From Dehalococcoidia bacterium (GTDB taxonomy: Bacteria > Chloroflexota > Dehalococcoidia > JAUSIH01), in contig JAUSIH010000001.1 of the NCBI GenBank assembly GCA_030648205.1, positions 1 through 55,696 of the forward strand: a stretch of 55,696 bases of DNA, given 5' to 3'. The first letter of the stretch is position 1. Every line of letters starts with the position of its first letter. The notes beneath the pieces were generated by a model. It was not told where the DNA came from. It worked only from the letters and a program-made list of their open reading frames with translations, and searched no databases. The position numbers and the translations under genes are program-made. Positions 6,501 through 53,815 of this stretch are shown here, piece by piece.

Positions 6501-6774
6501 CAAGACCAAGATACTGTTCCTGATCAGCGACGGTCGCCCGCAGGACAGGGGCTACTCACGCGAGGGCGTGGAGCGCGAGTACGCCGTGCATGACACGAAG
6601 ATGGCCCTGACCGAGGCCCGCCGCCGCAACATCGTGCCGTTCTGCCTGACGGTGGACCGCTCCGGCCACGACTATCTCAAGACCATGTGCTCCGACATGG
6701 GCTACGAGGTGCTGGCGGACATCCAGACGCTCCCCAAGCGCCTGCCGTTCCTCTACCGTCGTCTCACGGTGTAG
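3511..6774 (+). CDS. NorD-like VWA-domain protein (large)
   Basis: 1087 aa, larger than typical NorD (about 640). The C-terminal third is a von Willebrand A domain with a MIDAS motif DMSAS at residues 868-872, a HATRMGPAIRHA segment and LISDGRPQDRGY near the end, all hallmarks of NorD/CbbO. The first ~450 residues are a helical region with recurring W/A-rich units (for example TWANEG, TWARWG, DWAELG), probably armadillo-like repeats. A charged, Pro/Gln-rich linker lies at about 590-650. It should act with the AAA ATPase at 1976 as a metal-dependent client adaptor. Its 3' end is the source of a partial duplicate at 8581-8620. Confidence 0.8.
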   Translation: MDGEERSLAAIERDLQRFHISLGSEFRKAERLIGGRLSRANLATWANEGVAIAQNSFRSWEAATEYFGATPAMLDKVSFPQFLTWARWGRTLAQDSPNLAAAYFRAGPGSLDFLAPARIGDWAELGKGLYKGTWKSSALACRFFEQSPHILRYLPLPELRHYAAFVDALAARSYDMAAECMALAESVLSKIDEPDRKGFLSFTTSLVEASWRDARTAFESGGRVLVRIHKPERGRFIAMAQALAQVGQGAALVFFNECSRALAQMDPALHKEVLDLADQLMKIAPATAPEFLRSAPGVLKRVRADRLERWFQEGARILAENPEGGLAYFRMESTRGEEVLEGLASGVELERVREVLRMYCRALAGTGVELSPAQDLKAKGIGWAAQESPTTEGNTIYLPDVVERYALKDQNFGWYKVVSTHQVAHLEFGSFAFSFDRESRLFPESRRKALAALSPNGHADATEMERFFDLFEDRRLAADIFTALEDMRVDSMVKREYAGIREPYRRVQQDALAERTDIALLPLREALVEYLVRISLDGVASVEQFPSDMDPVIRAIVDTAPVVRAPEARVEDTAEATIRLYELIRSVPNAPQRQDENMQPSPGAAGGAPQPRQTSQAAPDQPPSGDGEGPRQHSGKKQAAEKPYTSPRRVDYRGDFKPELVQLLSKLRTTHAQQGKTQGQQNLSKALRQFLEKSVEFEADDAAEGEIEGMQRQFVENLLNEAARHRKAHNKPEEAKGFGLDKSEDEGEPLDAHEPLTFLYSEWDFRAGDYKPRWCRVREQRMEEGGEDFFQRTLDSYSGLVNEIKRSFEMVSMERLRKQRFLTDGEDLEMDAVIEARVEQKAGATPTDKLYWRRNKVERDVAVAFLLDMSASTAEAIDESRRGTDKLDPPDDPRDYMAWLKSRREDVGRPTYKRIIDIEKESTVLLIKALETVGDRYGIYGFSGYGRENVEFFVIKDLPEAFSDRVKRRIDKIAPLHATRMGPAIRHAVSKLDKEDAKTKILFLISDGRPQDRGYSREGVEREYAVHDTKMALTEARRRNIVPFCLTVDRSGHDYLKTMCSDMGYEVLADIQTLPKRLPFLYRRLTV

Positions 6775-6808
6775 CCCGCGCTTCGCTACATTGGAGAGGC
6801 GCGCGGCC

Positions 6809-7864
6809 TTACGCTCCTTCGATCTTTCGCGTGACGGAGAGCGACTCTCCCCATGAGGGGATGAACGTCGAGTGGTAGCCTCCGGGGCCTCCCGCGATCA
6901 CGAAGACGAAGTCCTCCGGCTTCTGGGCGAGCGCCACCCGCCCGTCAATGACGCGGCCGGGCTGCTTGCGAAGCTGGTCGTGGTACTCGGGCGCCCAGTG
7001 ATCGAGGGGCCGCCATTGCGTCAGCTCGAAGAGGGCGCGTCTGACATCCTGTTTTGAATACCCGTCGCGGGCCATCAGGTTGGCGTGGTCCGGGCACATC
7101 ACCACAAGCACTTCACCGACGGCGAACAGCATGTTGTTGCTGCCGACCATGTCCATGCAGTGGGAGAGCATGGTGAGGGAGCTTTGGGCGGACTTGGAAT
7201 GGCTGTCGAGGTAGCTGACGGTGCTGGCCGCGGAGAACACGGTGACGGTGCTGTCCTCCTTCTTGAACCCGCGCTCCACGTGCAGCGGTTCCCACGGCGA
7301 CCGCTCCTCGAACTCGCCGACGCACATTGTGTAGCGGCCGGGCGAGCCTTGCGTGGACTTGCTGACTGAGCCGGGGATGGCGCCGCCGATGTTCAGTTGA
7401 ATGAAGCGGACCGTACGCCCGATCGTGGCGTTGGCGCGCCAGCCCGGGCCGAAGCATCCGTAGGAGCAATTGATGTCCAGTTTCTGGCGGATAGGCCCGT
7501 TGATGACCAGCAAGAGAGCCGCGGGGCTGGTGCTCGTAGTCACTCCGTACAGGTTCAAGTCAAGGTCGGCCATCGCCTCCGTCGCGGCGATCAGGACGGG
7601 CATGTACTCCGGAGCGCAGCCCGCCATGACGGCGTTCACGGCGATCTTCTCCACGGTGGCCGGTGCGCGCCGCGGAGGTATCTCCCGCGCTATGACCTCC
7701 TCGGGCCGCCGTCCGGACGCGGCGACCATGCGCCGGACGCGCTCCTCCGTGGGCGGGACTATCGGCAGTCCGTCGGTGACGCCTTCCTTGTAGAAATGCT
7801 CGTAGATAGCGTCGCACGAGTCCTCAACGGCTATGCGTGGGGAAGCCAACGTGTAGTCGCCCAT
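6809..7864 (-). CDS. UGSC-associated ~350-aa protein, paralog A
   Basis: 351 aa; I recognise the family only through its five copies here. Shared landmarks: DGLPIVPPTEERV near residue 33; KIAVNAVMAGC with an invariant cysteine near 83; INGPIRQKL; GPGWRANATIGR; a second invariant cysteine in YTMCVGE; and WEPLHVERGF. No signal peptide or membrane segment, so cytosolic. It starts 63 bp downstream of selenoprotein gene UGSC1 with an AAGGAGAGGG ribosome site and is surely co-transcribed. The constant pairing implies a subunit of the same enzyme or complex. Function unknown; a reductase partner subunit is my inference. Confidence 0.85.
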   Translation of the reverse strand: MGDYTLASPRIAVEDSCDAIYEHFYKEGVTDGLPIVPPTEERVRRMVAASGRRPEEVIAREIPPRRAPATVEKIAVNAVMAGCAPEYMPVLIAATEAMADLDLNLYGVTTSTSPAALLLVINGPIRQKLDINCSYGCFGPGWRANATIGRTVRFIQLNIGGAIPGSVSKSTQGSPGRYTMCVGEFEERSPWEPLHVERGFKKEDSTVTVFSAASTVSYLDSHSKSAQSSLTMLSHCMDMVGSNNMLFAVGEVLVVMCPDHANLMARDGYSKQDVRRALFELTQWRPLDHWAPEYHDQLRKQPGRVIDGRVALAQKPEDFVFVIAGGPGGYHSTFIPSWGESLSVTRKIEGA

Positions 7865-7927
7865 ACCCTCTCCTTACTGGGGGACCGAGCGTGGCAGACC
7901 GGACGCCAGTCTGTGTCCGGGGGCCGA

Positions 7928-8485
7928 CTAGAGGCGGGCGGCCAGCGGGACGGTCAGCCTGGAGCAGATCTCCTCCAGCTTTTCCTTGGCCAGCCGCTTC
8001 ATCTCATCCGCGGGGAGCGTTTCGAACGGGTGTGGTAGGACGACCATCGGCAGGTCGGGATAGCCGAGGGATTTCGCGGACATCTGCGCCAGGGGCTGGA
8101 ACTCTCTGGTCACCAGCGCCACCGTCGGGACGCCCCTTTTCTCGAACTCGGCGCTCTCGTGGATACACCACGCGGTGCACCCGCCTCAGGCGGCCAGACC
8201 GGCGACGACGACATCGCAGTCCTGGCTAAACTGCTCGAACTCCCTGAGCTTCTCGCCCTTCCGTGTGTTGTAGAGGCTCTCAATGCGGCTGGTGGAGATG
8301 GTGGGGAAGCGCTCCTTCAGCAGCCGTTCGAGGTGGTCAACGAACACGCGGTAGTTGCGCCACGTGCCCAGACTGAAACCTATGCGCTTGCCCTCCAGTG
8401 TCTGCACCCTGGGAGACAGACCATGCCGCCGGTCGGGAGCCTTTTCCCGTGGGTCAAGGAGTTGGACCGTGCGCGACGCAGTCAT
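7928..8485 (-). CDS. UGSC-family selenoprotein 1 (in-frame TGA = Sec; U-G-G-C variant)
   Basis: 185 aa when the TGA at 8188-8186 is read as selenocysteine (residue 100). The frame is open on both sides of the TGA, and the downstream half matches the other two copies: after Sec come G-G-C-T-A-W-C-I-H, then EFEKRGVPTVALVT and a DLPMVVLPHPFE tail. The N-terminal half has the family pattern LEGKRIGFSLGTW and ends VVVAGLAA before Sec. Sec and Cys form a UxxC redox pair. The middle residue is Gly, where the family name motif has Ser. ATG 8485 has AAGGAG five bases upstream. Upstream gene of a two-gene operon with paralog A. A simple nonsense mutation is unlikely because the same codon interrupts three paralogs. 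Confidence 0.87.
8150..8188 (-). promoter_or_regulatory. SECIS-like hairpin of UGSC1 with its TGA codon
   Basis: Immediately 3' of the TGA the mRNA can fold as GGCG, 9 nt, CGTGG, loop TGTAT, CCACG, 4 nt, CGCC. The apical 5-bp stem and 5-nt loop begin 13 nt after the TGA; the loop starts 19 nt after it, within the 16-37 nt range known for bacterial SECIS elements. The outer GGCG/CGCC pair closes the element. Confidence 0.6.
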
Positions 8486-8550: not shown

Positions 8551-8620
8551 GCGCTGGTCGTGGCGCGGCGCTTGATGACCAAGCGCTCGCCGTTCCTCTA
8601 CCGCCGCCTCACGGTGTAGC
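8551..8620 (+). repeat. Mosaic scar: joined copies of a cinA segment and the norD-like 3' end
   Basis: Bases 8551-8592 match 10114-10155 (inside cinA) at 41 of 42 positions. Bases 8581-8620 match 6736-6775, the last codons of the NorD-like gene including its stop, at 36 of 40. The two sources overlap at the junction. In the plus frame the scar reads into KRSPFLYRRLTV and a stop, like the NorD-like C-terminus. It lies between the UGSC1 promoter and the MFS gene and cannot encode a protein by itself. Confidence 0.75.
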
Positions 8621-8640
8621 AGGCGTTTCGTGGCCCTGCC

Positions 8641-26703: not shown

Positions 26704-27747
26704 CTACCGCTCGATGCGCCGCGTCACCGACATGGCGCTGCCGCGCGTCGGCAGGAACGTGGAGTGCAGGGAGCCGTCGCCGCCGCCCACCATGACCATC
26801 CAGTCCTGCCAGCGCCGGACCATGGGCACCTTGCCGTTGATCTCGCGGCCCGGCCAGGTCTCCTGCTCCTTCTTGCGCTGGGAGATCCAGTCCGCCGGCA
26901 CCTGCGTGTTCTCCCACAGCCACTTCTTGAAGTCGTTCTTGGTGGCGAAGATGCGCTTGATCAGGCCCACGTGGCTGGGGCACAGCAGCAGCCCCGGCTC
27001 GCCCTTCCCCATGTGGAAGTTGTTGCAGCCCACGTCGCGCAGTGCGTATTTGAAGGTCAGGAGGACGTCCTCCGGGTCCGGGCTGGACTCAATGATGTTT
27101 TGCGTGCCGTGCACACCGGAGACCGTGACGGCGCTGTCCTCCCTCTTGAAGCCGCGCTCCACGTGCAGCGGCTCCCACGGGTTCTCCTCCTCGTTTTCTG
27201 CGATGCAAAAGGTGTACTTGCCGGGAGACCCCTGCGTCGCCTTGTCCACGGCGCCGGGCCTGGCGCCGCCCAGGTTCAGCAGAATGAGGCGCACCGCCCG
27301 TCCGATCGTGGCGTTGGCCTGCCAGCCCGGCCCGAAGAGACCGGACTTGTAGTTGACATTCAGCTCGTTGCGGATGGGGCCGTTGATGATGAGCAGCGGC
27401 GCGACGGGATTGGTGGTGGCCTGCATGCCGCTCAGGCTGAACCGCGGCTCCGCCATCGCGGCGACGGCGGCGATGAGCACCGGCATGTATTCCTTCTTGC
27501 ACCCCGCCATGACGGCGTTGACCGCGATCTTCTCGACGGTCGCCTCGCCGTTCAGGGGCGCGACCGCCGCGATCTTCTGCCTGGGGTCCTTGCCGGTGTA
27601 CTCGACGAAGGCCCGCACCCGCGCCTCCGTGGGCGGGACGACGGGCAGGCCATCGCTCATGCCCTTCGACAGCAGGTACTCGTTGATGGCCTCCAACGAG
27701 TCCTGGACCTGGACTTTGATGGACACAAGGCGTACATCCGGGGACAT
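26704..27747 (-). CDS. UGSC-associated ~350-aa protein, paralog B
   Basis: 347 aa, gap-free tandem copy of paralog C. Family landmarks: SDGLPVVPPTEARVRAFVEY, KIAVNAVMAGCKKEY (Cys near 83), INGPIRNELN, GPGWQANATIGR, YTFCIAENEEENPWEPLHVE and the C-terminal GGGDGSLHSTFLP. Starts ATG 27747 after a GGTCATCTC-poor leader of 55 bp from paralog C. Much of the C-terminal half is identical to C, including a long run around CNNFHMGKGEPGLLLCPSHV. Third gene of the UGSC2 operon. No transport signal; cytosolic. Presumed partner subunit of the selenoprotein; two different partners per selenoprotein suggest a heteromer or two specificities. Confidence 0.85.
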   Translation of the reverse strand: MSPDVRLVSIKVQVQDSLEAINEYLLSKGMSDGLPVVPPTEARVRAFVEYTGKDPRQKIAAVAPLNGEATVEKIAVNAVMAGCKKEYMPVLIAAVAAMAEPRFSLSGMQATTNPVAPLLIINGPIRNELNVNYKSGLFGPGWQANATIGRAVRLILLNLGGARPGAVDKATQGSPGKYTFCIAENEEENPWEPLHVERGFKREDSAVTVSGVHGTQNIIESSPDPEDVLLTFKYALRDVGCNNFHMGKGEPGLLLCPSHVGLIKRIFATKNDFKKWLWENTQVPADWISQRKKEQETWPGREINGKVPMVRRWQDWMVMVGGGDGSLHSTFLPTRGSAMSVTRRIER

Positions 27748-27802
27748 GAGATGACCCCCTACAGTACGAAGCTGCCTGACGGCGCGGGCGGCGCCCGGAC
27801 GC

Positions 27803-28846
27803 CTAGCGCTCGATGCGCCGCGTCACCGACATGGTGTCGCCGAATGTCGGCAGAAACGTGGAGTGCAGGGAGCCGTCGCCGCCGCCCACCATGACCATCC
27901 AGTCCTGCCAGCGCCGGACCATGGGCACCTTGCCGTTGATCTCGCGGCCCGGCCAGGTCTCCTGCTCCTTCTTGCGCAGGGAGATCCAGTCCGCCGGCAC
28001 CTTCGTGTTCTCCCACACCCACTGCTTGAAATCGTTCTTGGTGGCGAAGATGCGCTTGATCAGGCCCACGTGGCTGGGGCACAGCAGCAGCCCCGGCTCG
28101 CCCTTCCCCATGTGGAAGTTGTTGCAGCCCACGTCACGCAGGGCGTACTTGAAGGTCACAAGAACCTCCTCCGGGGTCGGGCTGCCCTCCAGGACGTTCT
28201 GCGTACCCTGCACGCCGGAGACCGTGACGGTGCTTTCGTCCTTTTTGAAGCCGCGCTCCACGTGCAGCGGCTCCCAGGGGTTCTCCTCTTCGTGTTCGGC
28301 GATGCAGAAAGTGTACTTGCCGGGAGACCCCTGCGTGGCCTTGTCAACAGTGCCGGGCCACGCGCCTCCCAGGGTGAGCTGGATGAGGCGCACCGCCCGC
28401 CCGATGGTCGCGTTGGCCTGCCAGCCCGGCCCGAAGAGGCCGGACTTGTAGTTGACGTTCAGCTCGTCGCGGATGGGGCCGTTGATGATGACCAGGATCG
28501 CGATCGGGTTGGTGGTGGCCTGCATGCCGTTCAGGTTGAACTGCGGCTCCGCCATCGCGGACACGGCGGCGAGGAGCACGGGCATGTATTCCTTCTTGCA
28601 CCCCGCCATGACCGCGTTGACCGCGATCTTCTCGACGGTCGCCTCGCCGTTCAGGGGCGCGACCACCGCGATCTTCTGCTTGGGGTCCTTGCGGGTGTAC
28701 TCGACGAAGGCCCGCACCCGCGCTTCCGTGGGCGGCACGACGGGCAGGCCGTCGCTCAACTGCTTCGAGAGGAGGTATTCGCTGACGGCCTCAACGGAAT
28801 CCTCGACCTGGACGCGGCTGGAGCTGAGCTTGAAATCCGGAGACAT
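27803..28846 (-). CDS. UGSC-associated ~350-aa protein, paralog C
   Basis: 347 aa, same length as paralog B without any gap. ATG 28846 with GGGAGG seven bases upstream, which rejects a longer GTG/ATG reading starting at 28915. All family landmarks are present: SDGLPVVPPTEARV, VNAVMAGCKKEY, INGPIRDELN, GPGWQANATIG, YTFCIAEHEEENPWEP. Differences from B are concentrated in the first 60 residues and around 215-235 (VQGTQNVLEGSPTPEEV against VHGTQNIIESSPDPEDV). It lies 105 bp after UGSC2 and is the second gene of that operon. Recent duplication followed by partial divergence or gene conversion. Confidence 0.87.
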   Translation of the reverse strand: MSPDFKLSSSRVQVEDSVEAVSEYLLSKQLSDGLPVVPPTEARVRAFVEYTRKDPKQKIAVVAPLNGEATVEKIAVNAVMAGCKKEYMPVLLAAVSAMAEPQFNLNGMQATTNPIAILVIINGPIRDELNVNYKSGLFGPGWQANATIGRAVRLIQLTLGGAWPGTVDKATQGSPGKYTFCIAEHEEENPWEPLHVERGFKKDESTVTVSGVQGTQNVLEGSPTPEEVLVTFKYALRDVGCNNFHMGKGEPGLLLCPSHVGLIKRIFATKNDFKQWVWENTKVPADWISLRKKEQETWPGREINGKVPMVRRWQDWMVMVGGGDGSLHSTFLPTFGDTMSVTRRIER

Positions 28847-28951
28847 AGGATAACCTCCCTTTGACTGAAGATTACTGGTCACACAAGTCGAGGCCCGGAC
28901 CGCCCGCCGGGACAATCCTGGGCCTCGACTTTCGATTGCGTGCTTGTGGGA

Positions 28952-29506
28952 CTAGGCCTTTGTTGGAATCTTGGGCATCGCCCCCGTCAGCTCCCCCACG
29001 ACGGCGGAAAACGCCTTGCGCGCGTGGGCGCGGACTTCCGCTTCCGGCAGAGTTTCCAGAGGGAAGGGCAGAATGACCTGGGGCAGGTCGGACATGCCCT
29101 TGCCCTTCGCCGAAGCGTTGGCGAGGGACTCGAAGAACTTGGTGGACAGAGTAACGGTGGGGACTCCCCGCTTCTCCAGCTCGACGCTGTCGTGGATACA
29201 CCACGCTGTGCAGGAGCCTCAGTTGCCCAGACCGCAGATCACCGCGTCCGCCTGGGCCAGCTCCTCCATCGCCGCCTTGGGCGTGGGGCTGGACGCGCCC
29301 TTCTTCTTGTGGATGACTTTGACCACGCCTTCGTTCTCTTTGAGCATCTTGGTGTATTCGTCGAAGACGATGCCCAGGCTCCGCCACCCGTTGTCAATGA
29401 AGCCGATGGTCTTGCCCTTGAGGCTGGGAATGCGCGGCGATACCTTCTGCTTTGCCGCGCCCGCTTCCGCCGAGGGCAGAAGGATCTCCACCATCTGGAC
29501 CGGCAT
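28952..29506 (-). CDS. UGSC-family selenoprotein 2 (in-frame TGA = Sec)
   Basis: 184 aa with Sec at residue 96 (TGA 29221-29219). The protein reads through exactly as the family name: GLGN then U-G-S-C-T-A-W-C-I-H, next ELEKRGVPTVTLSTKFFESL and DLPQVILPFPLE. N-terminal landmark KGKTIGFIDNGWRSLG. ATG 29506 is fixed by AGGAGG upstream; the longer frame to 29632 lacks a site. First gene of UGSC2 - partner C - partner B - EthD-like 2, behind a strong promoter. The Sec-x-x-Cys pair and the following E-(L/I)-E-K/R-x-G-(V/I)-P pattern resemble the selenocysteine region of glycine/proline reductase B subunits, as I remember them. Cytosolic; substrate unknown. Confidence 0.92.
29183..29221 (-). promoter_or_regulatory. 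SECIS-like hairpin of UGSC2 with its TGA codon
   Basis: Downstream of TGA: GGCTCCTGCACAG, then CGTGG-TGTAT-CCACG, then ACAGCGTC. Same apical stem and same 13-nt distance as in UGSC1 and UGSC3. The outer stem is short here (GGC with GUC, one G-U pair). Confidence 0.6.
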
Positions 29507-29614: not shown

Positions 29615-29728
29615 GTCACGGGACGGCCCCACCCGAACGGCGCGGCGTCACCCGCGTCACATCCCTCTTGCCCGATATGCTACGATACTGTGCAGACGCA
29701 CTCTACTACGGAAAGGGAGGCCCTGACG

Positions 29729-31102
<1,374 letters not shown>

Positions 31103-32324: not shown

Positions 32325-33380
32325 CTACTCTTTGATCTCCCGGCTGGCCATGAACCCGCCGAAGGTGCCCCATCCGGGGCAGACGCTGGAGTTGCGGCCC
32401 CAGCCGCCCGCGACGACGATGTGGATATCGTCCGGGCTATATGCTATCGGCACCAGGGCGTCGTCGTTATTGCGGTCCACCCACTTGGGCCAGGAGTTCA
32501 GCTCTTTCTCAAGGCTGTAGTAGCCGCCCGTCTTGATGAACCCCAGCGGCTTGCGCGCATGCTCCCAGATGAAATGCTGGACGTCCTGCTTGGAGTACCC
32601 GTCGCGGGCGAGCTGATTGGCGTGATAGGCGCCCAGGGCCACGAGCGTCTGGCCCATGGTCACCACGTTGTTGTTCCCCAGGGTGGCGAGTGTGTCGCAG
32701 ATGGTCATCATGACCGCCCGCGACTCGCAGATGGCGCCCACGTAGTGCGGCGACTCGCAGCCGAAGACGGTGACGGCGCTGGCCTCGGCGGGCACGCCGT
32801 GGTCGGTGTGGACGGGCGCCCAAGGGCTTTCCTTGTTGTTCTCGCCGATGCAGTATGTCCACTTGCCGGGATGGGCCTGGTTCTTGCGGGCCGTCTCGCC
32901 GGGGCGCGCGCCGCCCAGGTTCCACAGGCCCAGAGCAACGGCCCGACCGATTGTCCCGTTGGCGCGGTAGCCGTTCCCGAAGACGCCCCAGGAGGCGTTG
33001 ATGCCCAGCTTTTGCACCACCGGCCCGCTCACGATAATCAGCGGGCAGGCGATGTGCGCGGTGGTCTGCACGCCGTTCAGGTTGAACTCCGGCGCCAGCA
33101 GCGCCTCAAAAGCGGCCAGGACGGTGGGGAAATACTCCGGCAGGCAGCCCGCCATCACCGCGTTGATGGCCAGCTTCTCCACGGTGGCCGGGCAGTACTT
33201 CGGCGGGATGGGGCCCAACACCTCGTCCGGCTTGCGCCTGGTTGCGGCGAGCATGCGCTCCACCTTCTGGGGCGTCGGCGGGACCACGGGCAGGCCGTCA
33301 GTCCATCCCTTTTGAAAGAACAGCTCAACCGCGTCATCGGGGCCTGGCGTTTCGATAAGGTCGGCCTGGAACTGCATCAT
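32325..33380 (-). CDS. UGSC-associated ~350-aa protein, orphan paralog D
   Basis: 351 aa, most divergent copy. Retained landmarks: TDGLPVVPPTPQKVERM, AINAVMAGCLPEYFP (invariant Cys), GYRANGTIGR, WTYCIGENNKESPWAPVHTD (second invariant Cys). Unlike the others it has an extended final third with CESPHYVGAICESRAV and ends WGTFGGFMASREIKE. No UGSC gene lies beside it; the nearest is UGSC2, 2.8 kb away. Start ATG 33380 (or the ATG 3 bp later, better spaced from AGGAGG). Divergent from the phosphoesterase gene. Either a stand-alone relative or a partner acting in trans. Confidence 0.83.
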   Translation of the reverse strand: MMQFQADLIETPGPDDAVELFFQKGWTDGLPVVPPTPQKVERMLAATRRKPDEVLGPIPPKYCPATVEKLAINAVMAGCLPEYFPTVLAAFEALLAPEFNLNGVQTTAHIACPLIIVSGPVVQKLGINASWGVFGNGYRANGTIGRAVALGLWNLGGARPGETARKNQAHPGKWTYCIGENNKESPWAPVHTDHGVPAEASAVTVFGCESPHYVGAICESRAVMMTICDTLATLGNNNVVTMGQTLVALGAYHANQLARDGYSKQDVQHFIWEHARKPLGFIKTGGYYSLEKELNSWPKWVDRNNDDALVPIAYSPDDIHIVVAGGWGRNSSVCPGWGTFGGFMASREIKE

Positions 33381-52194: not shown

Positions 52195-53247
52195 TCAGAC
52201 CGGCTCCGGCACGCGCCGCGTCACGGCCCACGAGTCGCCCCAGCCGTGCACGACGACGATGTGGTACGGCTCCAGCGCGCCCGCCACGGCGATGAGGATG
52301 TGCTCTGGCTTCTGGCACGGCTTCGTCTGGTCGCCGACCTGGATGCGCGGCTGGCGGTGCTCCCGCATCATGTGGGGCATCTGCGCCGTCGGGAAGCCCG
52401 CCTTGTCGAAAATGTAGCGCTGCACGTCCGCCTTGCTCATTCCGCGCTCGGCGAAGAGCTTCGCGTGGCCGGGCGTGAAGATGATGAGCCACTCGCCGGA
52501 CGCGACGACGACGTTGTTGCTCCCCATCCATGACATGGCGTCGGCCACCCACAGGAGCATGTCGAACGGGTTGGTCAGGATGGTGGTGGCCACGTTCTGC
52601 GTGCCGTTGGCGGCATAGGCGGTGACGGCGCTCTCCTCCCGCTTGAAGCCCCGGTCCACGTGCAGGGGCGCCCACGGGCTGTTCTCCTCGTCCTCCGCGA
52701 AGCAGAAGGTGTACTTGCCGGGGAAGCCGTGGGTTGACTTGTCCACCGCCTCCGGGACGCCGCCGCCGATGTTGAGCATGATGAGGCGCAGCGCACGGCC
52801 AATGGTGGCGTTGGCCCGGTTGCCGGGCGCGAGGCAGCCGCGGCCCGAGTTCATGCCCGCCGTCCTGCGGACAGGCCCGTTCACGATGAGCACCGGCGCT
52901 GCGGGGCCGGTGGTCGCCTGCACGCCATGCAGGTTGAACGGCTCCTGGGCAATGGCGTCCACGGACGCGACCACCACGGAAAAGTGCTCCGGACGGCAGC
53001 CCGCCATCACCGCGTTGGCGGCGATCTTCTCCAGCGTGGCCCGGCCGTTGCGCGGGTCCAGGTTCGCGATGACCTCGCCGCCGGAGCGGCCCAGCGCGCG
53101 CAGCATCGCCGCCACGCGCCGCTCCGTGGGCGGGACGATGGGCAGGCCGTCCGACCAGCCCTCGGCGACGGCGCGTTCGTTGATGGCGTCCAGCGACGGG
53201 TCCACGGCCAGGAGGTCTTTCGCGCGCGTTTTCGCGGACGCAGGCAT
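52195..53247 (-). CDS. UGSC-associated ~350-aa protein, paralog E
   Basis: 350 aa. Landmarks: SDGLPIVPPTERRVAAMLRA, KIAANAVMAGCRPEHF, VNGPVRRTAG, NRANATIGRALRL, YTFCFAEDEENSPWAPLHVD and a closing HIVVVHGWGDSWAVTRRV. Starts four bases after the UGSC3 stop codon, the tightest pairing in the window, so the two are almost certainly one translation unit. ATG 53247 is chosen over the longer Arg-rich frame to 53313. Confidence 0.87.
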   Translation of the reverse strand: MPASAKTRAKDLLAVDPSLDAINERAVAEGWSDGLPIVPPTERRVAAMLRALGRSGGEVIANLDPRNGRATLEKIAANAVMAGCRPEHFSVVVASVDAIAQEPFNLHGVQATTGPAAPVLIVNGPVRRTAGMNSGRGCLAPGNRANATIGRALRLIMLNIGGGVPEAVDKSTHGFPGKYTFCFAEDEENSPWAPLHVDRGFKREESAVTAYAANGTQNVATTILTNPFDMLLWVADAMSWMGSNNVVVASGEWLIIFTPGHAKLFAERGMSKADVQRYIFDKAGFPTAQMPHMMREHRQPRIQVGDQTKPCQKPEHILIAVAGALEPYHIVVVHGWGDSWAVTRRVPEPV

Positions 53248-53251
53248 GGGC

Positions 53252-53815
53252 CTACACCTCTTTCGCGGCGCGCGCTGCCGCCTTGGGGGCGATGGACGCC
53301 AACGCCTGGTCAAGCGCCTTCTCCGCCGCCTTCTCCAGGTCAGGCTTCGGCATGTACTCGACGCTGCGCGGCATGACGACCAGCGGCAGATTGGGCATGC
53401 CCTTGCTCTTGCGCACCGCCTGCCCCAGCGGAATGAAGGACTCGGTCACGAGGACGGCGGCGGGAACGCCGCGCTTGTGGAACTCGACTCCGTCGTGGAC
53501 ACTCCACGCGGTGCAGGAGCCTCAGTTGCCCAGCCCCACGATGGCGATGTCCGCCTCCTTCGCGAGCTGGTCCATGGTTCCGGCGGCCAGCGGACGCGTC
53601 AGGTCCGGGTTCTTCACGCGGATGACCTTCGCGACGCCGTGCCGCTCCTTGAGGAGGCGCTCCATGGTGTCCAGCGTCACGCCCAGGCTGGCCCAGCCGT
53701 TGTCAATGAAGGCGGCTGTCTTGCCCGCCAGCTCGCCGACGGGCGGGGCCATCTCCTGCGTCAGCGTGGGGACAGGCGCCACGGGGTTCACGATGTAGGA
53801 TGTGCGCGGGGACAT
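53252..53815 (-). CDS. UGSC-family selenoprotein 3 (in-frame TGA = Sec)
   Basis: 187 aa with Sec at residue 98 (TGA 53524-53522). Around it: IVGLGN, U-G-S-C-T-A-W-S-V-H-D-G-V-E-F, HKRGVPAAVLVTESF and NLPLVVMPRSVE. N-terminal landmark GKTAAFIDNGWASLG. ATG 53815 has GGAGG five bases upstream. The tryptophan-following Cys of copies 1 and 2 (WCIH) is Ser here, so only the U-G-S-C pair is invariant. Upstream of paralog E by four bases. Same redox interpretation as copy 2. Confidence 0.92.
53486..53524 (-). promoter_or_regulatory. SECIS-like hairpin of UGSC3 with its TGA codon
   Basis: GGCTCC (pairs with GGAGTC downstream, six pairs including one G-U), then CGTGG-AGTGT-CCACG. The lower stem differs from UGSC1 but still pairs; the apical stem is identical. 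The best-paired of the three. Confidence 0.65.

Follow-up and report, generated by a model that had tools for sequence, protein, structure and literature searches.

Pairing of UGSC selenoproteins with an unnamed cysteine-containing protein family in Dehalococcoidia-like Chloroflexota: a candidate two-subunit selenocysteine-dependent reductase

The window and the pairing of the two gene families

The question raised by this locus is what function a selenoprotein may have when its gene stands, three times within one contig, beside a gene of an unnamed protein family. The window, i.e. the whole stretch of 55,696 nucleotides which was analysed (contig JAUSIH010000001.1 of a Dehalococcoidia bacterium), contains three genes of the UGSC family and five genes of the partner family (Table 1). 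Each UGSC gene exceeds the cut-off of the Pfam model PF24696 (25 bits); the equivalog cut-off of NF041046 (125 bits) was not reached by UGSC gene 1 (105 bits), and all 40 UGSC paralogues scanned match this model at some level. One in-frame TGA was found in each of the three genes, within U-G-[SG]-C-T, and the combination that characterizes the family, an in-frame TGA in U-G-x-C together with a SECIS element, is present in them.

Table 1. Genes, recoded codons and hairpins of the modules in the window
Feature	Position	Strand	Remarks
Partner gene 1	6809..7864	(-)	351 aa, unnamed family; no match in Pfam/NCBIfam
UGSC selenoprotein gene 1	7928..8485	(-)	ATG 8485, stop TAG 7928-7930; PF24696 136.9 bits; one TGA
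In-frame TGA of UGSC gene 1	8186..8188	(-)	read as selenocysteine, U of U-G-G-C(-T)
SECIS-like hairpin, UGSC gene 1	8156..8174	(-)	directly downstream of TGA; 41-paralogue alignment and pair counts
Partner gene 3	26704..27747	(-)	tandem, after partner gene 2
Partner gene 2	27803..28846	(-)	directly after UGSC gene 2
UGSC selenoprotein gene 2	28952..29506	(-)	TGA 29219-29221; PF24696 143.8 bits
SECIS-like hairpin, UGSC gene 2	29189..29207	(-)	41-paralogue alignment and pair counts
selA (selenocysteine synthase)	29690..31102	(+)	PF03841 E 4.8e-135; divergent from UGSC gene 2
Partner gene 5	32325..33380	(-)	no UGSC alongside
Partner gene 4	52195..53247	(-)	after UGSC gene 3
UGSC selenoprotein gene 3	53252..53815	(-)	TGA 53522-53524; PF24696 136.9 bits
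SECIS-like hairpin, UGSC gene 3	53492..53510	(-)	41-paralogue alignment and pair counts

A sequence-only reading of this DNA had stated that every UGSC gene is directly followed by a partner gene, that there are five partners, a single one of them isolated, and that all partners keep two cysteines and the motif DGLPxVPPT. The coordinates agree with this description: the three UGSC genes are each directly trailed by a partner, the five partner genes were confirmed, and only partner gene 5 has neither a UGSC nor a second partner adjoining. All five partners (about 350 amino acids) retain NAVMAGC, DGLP[IV]VPPT and the second cysteine motif, the last in the form [YW]T.C. One point needs correction: behind UGSC gene 2 there is not one partner but a tandem of two.

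Loci with one UGSC and two partners, arranged either as partner-UGSC-partner or in tandem, recur in haloarchaea and Chloroflexota (L165, L166, L169; window 26704-29506; G000 C48:12092-15297), hinting at a heteromeric partner pair. As a separate observation, module 6809-8485 is bracketed by a 52-nt direct repeat (87%) at 6734-6785 and 8579-8630, which corresponds to the last part of the gene lying upstream (3' end; the gene ends at 6774); the module looks as if it had been inserted at this place, accompanied by a partial duplication.

UGSC ranks among the selenoprotein families that are most abundant in aquatic habitats, and no function has been assigned to it since 2008 (PMC2398784, PMC13188914). 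In the first of these papers, the family was named, its fusion to a domain called 'Unknown_1' was reported, a thioredoxin-like fold was suggested, and fusions were the only arrangement seen, in metagenome data (PMC2398784). Our results differ from that description of the family (PF24696/NF041046) in three points: UGSC nearly always has the partner beside it, a Rossmann-like fold is predicted, and the number of copies is extreme; we infer that 'Unknown_1' is the present partner family. The open-access literature yielded no account of an obligate pairing, of a link to GrdB, of the fold or of the expansion. The pairing, the relation to GrdB/PrdB and the scale of the expansion thus appear to be new, while UGSC and its fusion had already been published.

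In the host genome (2.69 Mb in 120 contigs, fragmented, 95% complete and with 0.95% contamination), a search with PF24696 yielded 46 UGSC matches, of which 41 carry a single TGA, three are fusions that lost the motif and two are cut by contig ends. Cysteine at the Sec position was found in none of the intact-motif copies of this genome. The partner profile detected 56 full or partial copies and one fragment of 39 residues. A partner lies on the same strand at a distance of 30-243 bp from 44 of the 46 UGSC genes (34 with UGSC first and 10 with the partner first), and because of this the adjacency of the two genes in the host genome is far beyond chance.

The association extends to other organisms. 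We collected 80 partner loci from other genomes, which were found through the partner, making the sample free of selection for UGSC; they come from Chloroflexota, several proteobacterial groups, Rokubacteria, Binatia, Entotheonella, Nitrospinae, Poribacteria, Bacillus and Natrialba. A same-strand UGSC gene is present at 71 of them, in 69 cases adjacent, mostly in the Sec form, three being Cys forms (Natrialba and two sphingomonads). Among 400 Chloroflexota genomes, UGSC was found in 42 and the partner in 42, both in 41, each alone in one and neither in 357 (Fisher 1e-53), which means that 41 of the 43 genomes having either have both. The prevalence of partners lacking UGSC, which the sequence-only reading had named as one result that would speak against a functional module, is therefore not what was found: the pairing is near-constant. 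Poribacteria were considered as a group with the partner but without UGSC, and this was rejected, as a Sec-type UGSC was present elsewhere in all three genomes tested.

Natural fusions of UGSC and the partner are frequent and occur in many lineages. In the fusions of Sporomusa (L163:7320-9044) and Vibrio (L164:7410-9095), MGTS replaces UGSC, and the genes adjoin those of aconitase X and DUF126; motif-less fusions of this kind also occur in the host genome. The fusion of Bacillus dakarensis (L094:5413-7260) is longer by some 70 residues at its C-terminus, and this additional part looks NifU-like.

Selenocysteine decoding and expansion of the family

The host genome encodes a complete machinery for selenocysteine incorporation, i.e. 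tRNA-Sec (contig C102), SelB (C46), SelD (C53; its gene has one in-frame TGA of its own) and the SelA encoded in the window. A second match to tRNA-Sec (C40) was rejected as tRNA-Ser. TGA serves also as an ordinary stop codon in this organism, six partner genes ending with it. The putative SECIS element is a hairpin formed by nucleotides 15-33 counted from the TGA. Across the 41 copies, 74.6% of its cells are paired, versus at most 45.6% when the pattern is slid along the sequence; 23 cells are changed on both sides, versus a shuffle mean of 9.2; and the covariation amounts to 0.261, versus at most 0.124 in the control. The pairs lie within the coding sequence, where codon constraint contributes to these values, a constraint that the slide control retains. 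Folding energy relative to shuffled sequences was lowest in the window starting at the TGA (mean z -0.76).

It might be argued that translation truly ends at the TGA, which would make the genes pseudogenes, or that a mixture of strains in the assembly accounts for the many copies; the fragmentation into 120 contigs would be in line with an artefact. However, the same motif around the TGA in 41 copies, the use of TGA as a stop in six partner genes and the covarying hairpin argue against a sequencing accident or general recoding, and the full Sec machinery is present. Homologues from Natrialba, Natrinema and Sphingomonas that have Cys in place of this Sec likewise speak against pseudogenes. As to strain mixture, the contamination is low (0.95%), and identity between paired paralogues does not exceed 62% for UGSC (median 30%) and 66% for the partner (median 38%), hence they are not strain duplicates. 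We regard an artefact of either kind as very improbable. In Paracoccus ferrooxidans, the annotation breaks the UGSC gene (L170:6384-6953) at its TGA into two short hypothetical proteins; selB lies about 3 kb away from this gene.

The two families have diversified together, the distances within 39 UGSC-partner pairs being correlated (Mantel r 0.684 versus a null maximum of 0.334). In a tree that also includes partners from related genomes, the host copies form 18 groups of their own (the largest with n=14 and support of 0.99), a pattern of old diversity combined with local duplication. The host is the only genome of its order among those compared.

An even larger set was found in genome G027 of the same class, taken as the groundwater Chloroflexi assembly JACPQD01. 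It has at least 150 UGSC genes, a count for which 150 of 208 candidates were scored, all 150 matching, and which calls for a strain check, contamination being 7%. The motif pattern occurs 179 times in this genome, versus 19 times in the reversed control, and nearly all of its UGSC genes listed have one in-frame TGA (loci L046-L053, L075 and L084 are among them). The largest bacterial selenoproteomes reported so far comprise 57 and 63 genes (PMC13188914); the number in G027 is more than twofold higher and comes from a single family, which raises the question why a bacterium commits so much of its metabolism to selenium.

Relatives, predicted folds and invariant residues

The likeness of the Sec segment of UGSC to that of GrdB/PrdB, which the sequence-only reading had proposed, was borne out by profile comparisons. 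The GrdB model TIGR01917 is matched by 25 of the 40 UGSC paralogues (best 5.1e-5) and PrdB by nine, the models of GrdF, GrdH and general selenoprotein B also being matched. When compared by hhalign, UGSC aligned with three GrdB proteins at a probability of 86% (P 4.8e-6) and with a small UPxC family at 93% (P 4.2e-7), in both cases U on U, while reversed-profile controls gave P of about 0.4 and a probability of 0.1-0.2%. Sequence profiles thus support UGSC and the Sec segment of GrdB/PrdB as remote homologues. PF07355 found no match in the host genome; since UGSC falls below this model, it is a relative of GrdB/PrdB, not a member.

In GrdB/PrdB (PF07355; glycine, sarcosine, betaine and D-proline reductases), the segment that aligns with UGSC has the order strand-U-x-x-C-helix-E-x-x-G-[IV]-P. 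Both systems appear to consist of substrate-specific two-subunit modules and both are linked to thioredoxin, in the case of UGSC through its Cys forms; they differ in that the partner of UGSC is unrelated to GrdB and that many UGSC hosts are not Stickland fermenters. A relation of the partner to GrdB was rejected (profile comparison probability 0.5-1.4%), and none of 53 partners matched the Pfam glycine/proline reductase families, those of GrdE/PrdA-type pyruvoyl proproteins included. In FarB/FarE, the proposed fluoroacetate reductase of Cloacibacillus, a GrdB-like Sec subunit is combined with a substrate subunit, C-X cleavage has been proposed, and the family is genomically expanded, as is the UGSC module (PMC10838667). 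However, FarB/FarE are true homologues of GrdB/GrdE, whereas UGSC is a remote relative only and its partner has no Pfam match to the GrdE/PrdA type. The small UPxC 'PrdB-like' selenoproteins of Chloroflexota (L133-L156) are short GrdB relatives with a UGSC-like Sec segment, but they clearly correspond to the C-terminal half of PF07355 and form a separate family.

Searches of PDB sequences with UGSC and with a GrdB returned nothing significant for either, and the same was true for the partner in Pfam, NCBIfam and PDB sequence searches. The AlphaFold2 model of partner 1 is of high confidence (pLDDT 95.5, pTM 0.94) and places Cys83 just ahead of helix 85-98; it matched no PDB fold at E<=0.001. 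The class I fumarase/Toblerone cyclic amide hydrolase fold was rejected (best E 1.5e-3, TM 0.26-0.30). Structure prediction of the two proteins together, suggested by the earlier reading, gave one confident unit for a natural betaproteobacterial fusion (L082:5440-7017; pLDDT 95.8, pTM 0.94), and our interface model is that of this fusion; such a pTM implies a defined mutual orientation of the modelled domains. In the UGSC half, beta and alpha elements alternate, with five strands, and Sec (residue 90) is located between strand 82-88 and helix 91-106. The best PDB matches of the UGSC model are generic flavodoxin/azoreductase-like proteins, and UGSC is predicted to be a small Rossmann-like domain. 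On the basis of this topology and these matches, a thioredoxin fold was rejected.

Most prokaryotic selenoproteins are redox or antioxidant proteins, and on that ground the module could be a peroxidase or another antioxidant pair, similar to peroxiredoxin-type selenoproteins. The thioredoxin-like fold guessed for UGSC in the 2008 report would fit it (PMC2398784). The predicted fold is, however, not of this type, and about 40-150 diversified paralogues near uptake systems, CoA transferases and luciferase-type monooxygenases are unlike housekeeping genes; an antioxidant role seems improbable to us.

Wherever the site is covered, Cys83 is present in all Sec-paired (112/112), lone (21/21), degenerate-UGSC (7/7) and Cys-paired (3/3) partners, and also in four of five copies at contig edges. 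Arg150, Glu184 and Trp191 are almost as constant. Cys181 is found in 98 of 112 Sec-paired partners, so that Cys83, being invariant, is the likely catalytic cysteine. It is kept with or without a neighbouring Sec, which suggests that the partner shares in catalysis or has chemistry of its own. The sequence-only reading had assigned catalysis to UGSC and substrate specificity to the partner. The two-subunit reductase it envisaged is consistent with the near-constant pairing and the GrdB/PrdB homology; UGSC as the sole catalyst beside a partner responsible for specificity only is less likely, given the Sec-independence of Cys83, and the model moves towards a probable shared active site.

Since the invariant residues of the partner are kept when UGSC is degenerate or non-adjacent, the main catalyst may be a residue other than Sec. 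One could go further and regard the partner as the enzyme proper, acting through Cys83, and UGSC as a dedicated selenol reductant that resets this cysteine in the manner of a thioredoxin-like recycler. Retention of Cys83, Arg150, Glu184 and Trp191 in lone partners and in fusions with the lost UGSC motif, the excess of partners (56) over UGSC (46) in the host, and the AcnX-linked Sporomusa and Vibrio fusions would all agree with this. On the other hand, UGSC is homologous to the Sec segment with which GrdB/PrdB attack their substrates and not to thioredoxin, its domain is predicted to be Rossmann-like, and UGSC and the partner diversify jointly, paralogue by paralogue, which would be needless for a general recycler. 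We consider such a division of labour unlikely, if well short of negligible.

Candidate reaction and neighbouring genes

The explanation we lean towards, by a small measure, is that UGSC and the partner constitute one two-subunit oxidoreductase, sometimes as a single fused chain, which would use its selenol to reduce organic compounds taken up by the cell and would probably be recycled by thioredoxin. For PrdB, it was described that Sec attacks the alpha-carbon, Cys resolves the selenoether and a dithiol recycles the enzyme, and thioredoxin and TrxB act in glycine reduction (reviewed in PMC3091704); cleavage of the C-F bond of fluoroacetate was proposed for a GrdB-like pair (PMC10838667). By analogy with the PrdB mechanism and this C-F cleavage, the reaction, its substrates, the electron flow and the order of attack may be pictured as follows. 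The substrate would be bound and activated (polarised) by the invariant Cys83-Arg150-Glu184 set of the partner. The selenol of UGSC, whose Sec is placed where a helix of the Rossmann-like domain begins, would then attack the substrate, either as bound or as an adduct with the partner, and the cysteine of UxxC would resolve the selenium intermediate, giving a selenenylsulfide. Re-reduction of the latter by thioredoxin and thioredoxin reductase is the probable recycling route. The net effect would be that a small organic compound, once imported, is cleaved reductively, different paralogues serving different substrates.

A broader proposal, to which we give slightly less than an even chance, is that the module represents a new class of selenoenzymes. 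A two-subunit Sec reductase, made up of a pared-down Sec domain of the GrdB type and a Cys subunit of new fold, would have diversified into tens to more than 150 substrate-specific enzymes in some uncultivated Dehalococcoidia-like Chloroflexota, giving the largest selenoproteomes known. The function of UGSC can be tested directly without selenium genetics, through the partner, the Cys forms (cultured haloarchaea, Roseovarius, Arthrobacter and Variovorax) and the homology to GrdB/PrdB.

Neighbouring genes bear on both the substrates and the electron supply. Haloarchaeal modules adjoin genes of CoA transferases, a CoA-ester lyase, an LLM-type oxidoreductase and TRAP/tricarboxylate transport. In the host, SBP_bac_5 uptake proteins account for 13 of 137 module neighbours versus 3 of 137 genes in control regions of the same genome, a modest enrichment (Fisher p 0.018); CoA_transf_3 and MFS, with six genes each near the modules versus at most one each in the control, did not reach significance. 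Enoyl-CoA hydratases were considered and showed no enrichment (four versus five in control regions). From the neighbouring transport and CoA-transferase genes, we infer a role of the module in catabolism of imported small organic compounds.

Linkage to thioredoxin was found for Cys forms (CGSC): the gene order is trxB-trxA-partner-UGSC in Arthrobacter and partner-UGSC-trxB in Roseovarius, and trxB lies three genes upstream in Variovorax. No thioredoxin genes stand beside the modules of the host genome, where one thioredoxin gene is located near a partnerless UGSC. The latter, on G000 C102 (L023, L126), is the only UGSC of the host that lacks a partner on its contig without being cut by a contig end; the genes of tRNA-Sec and thioredoxin lie within 2.5 kb of it.
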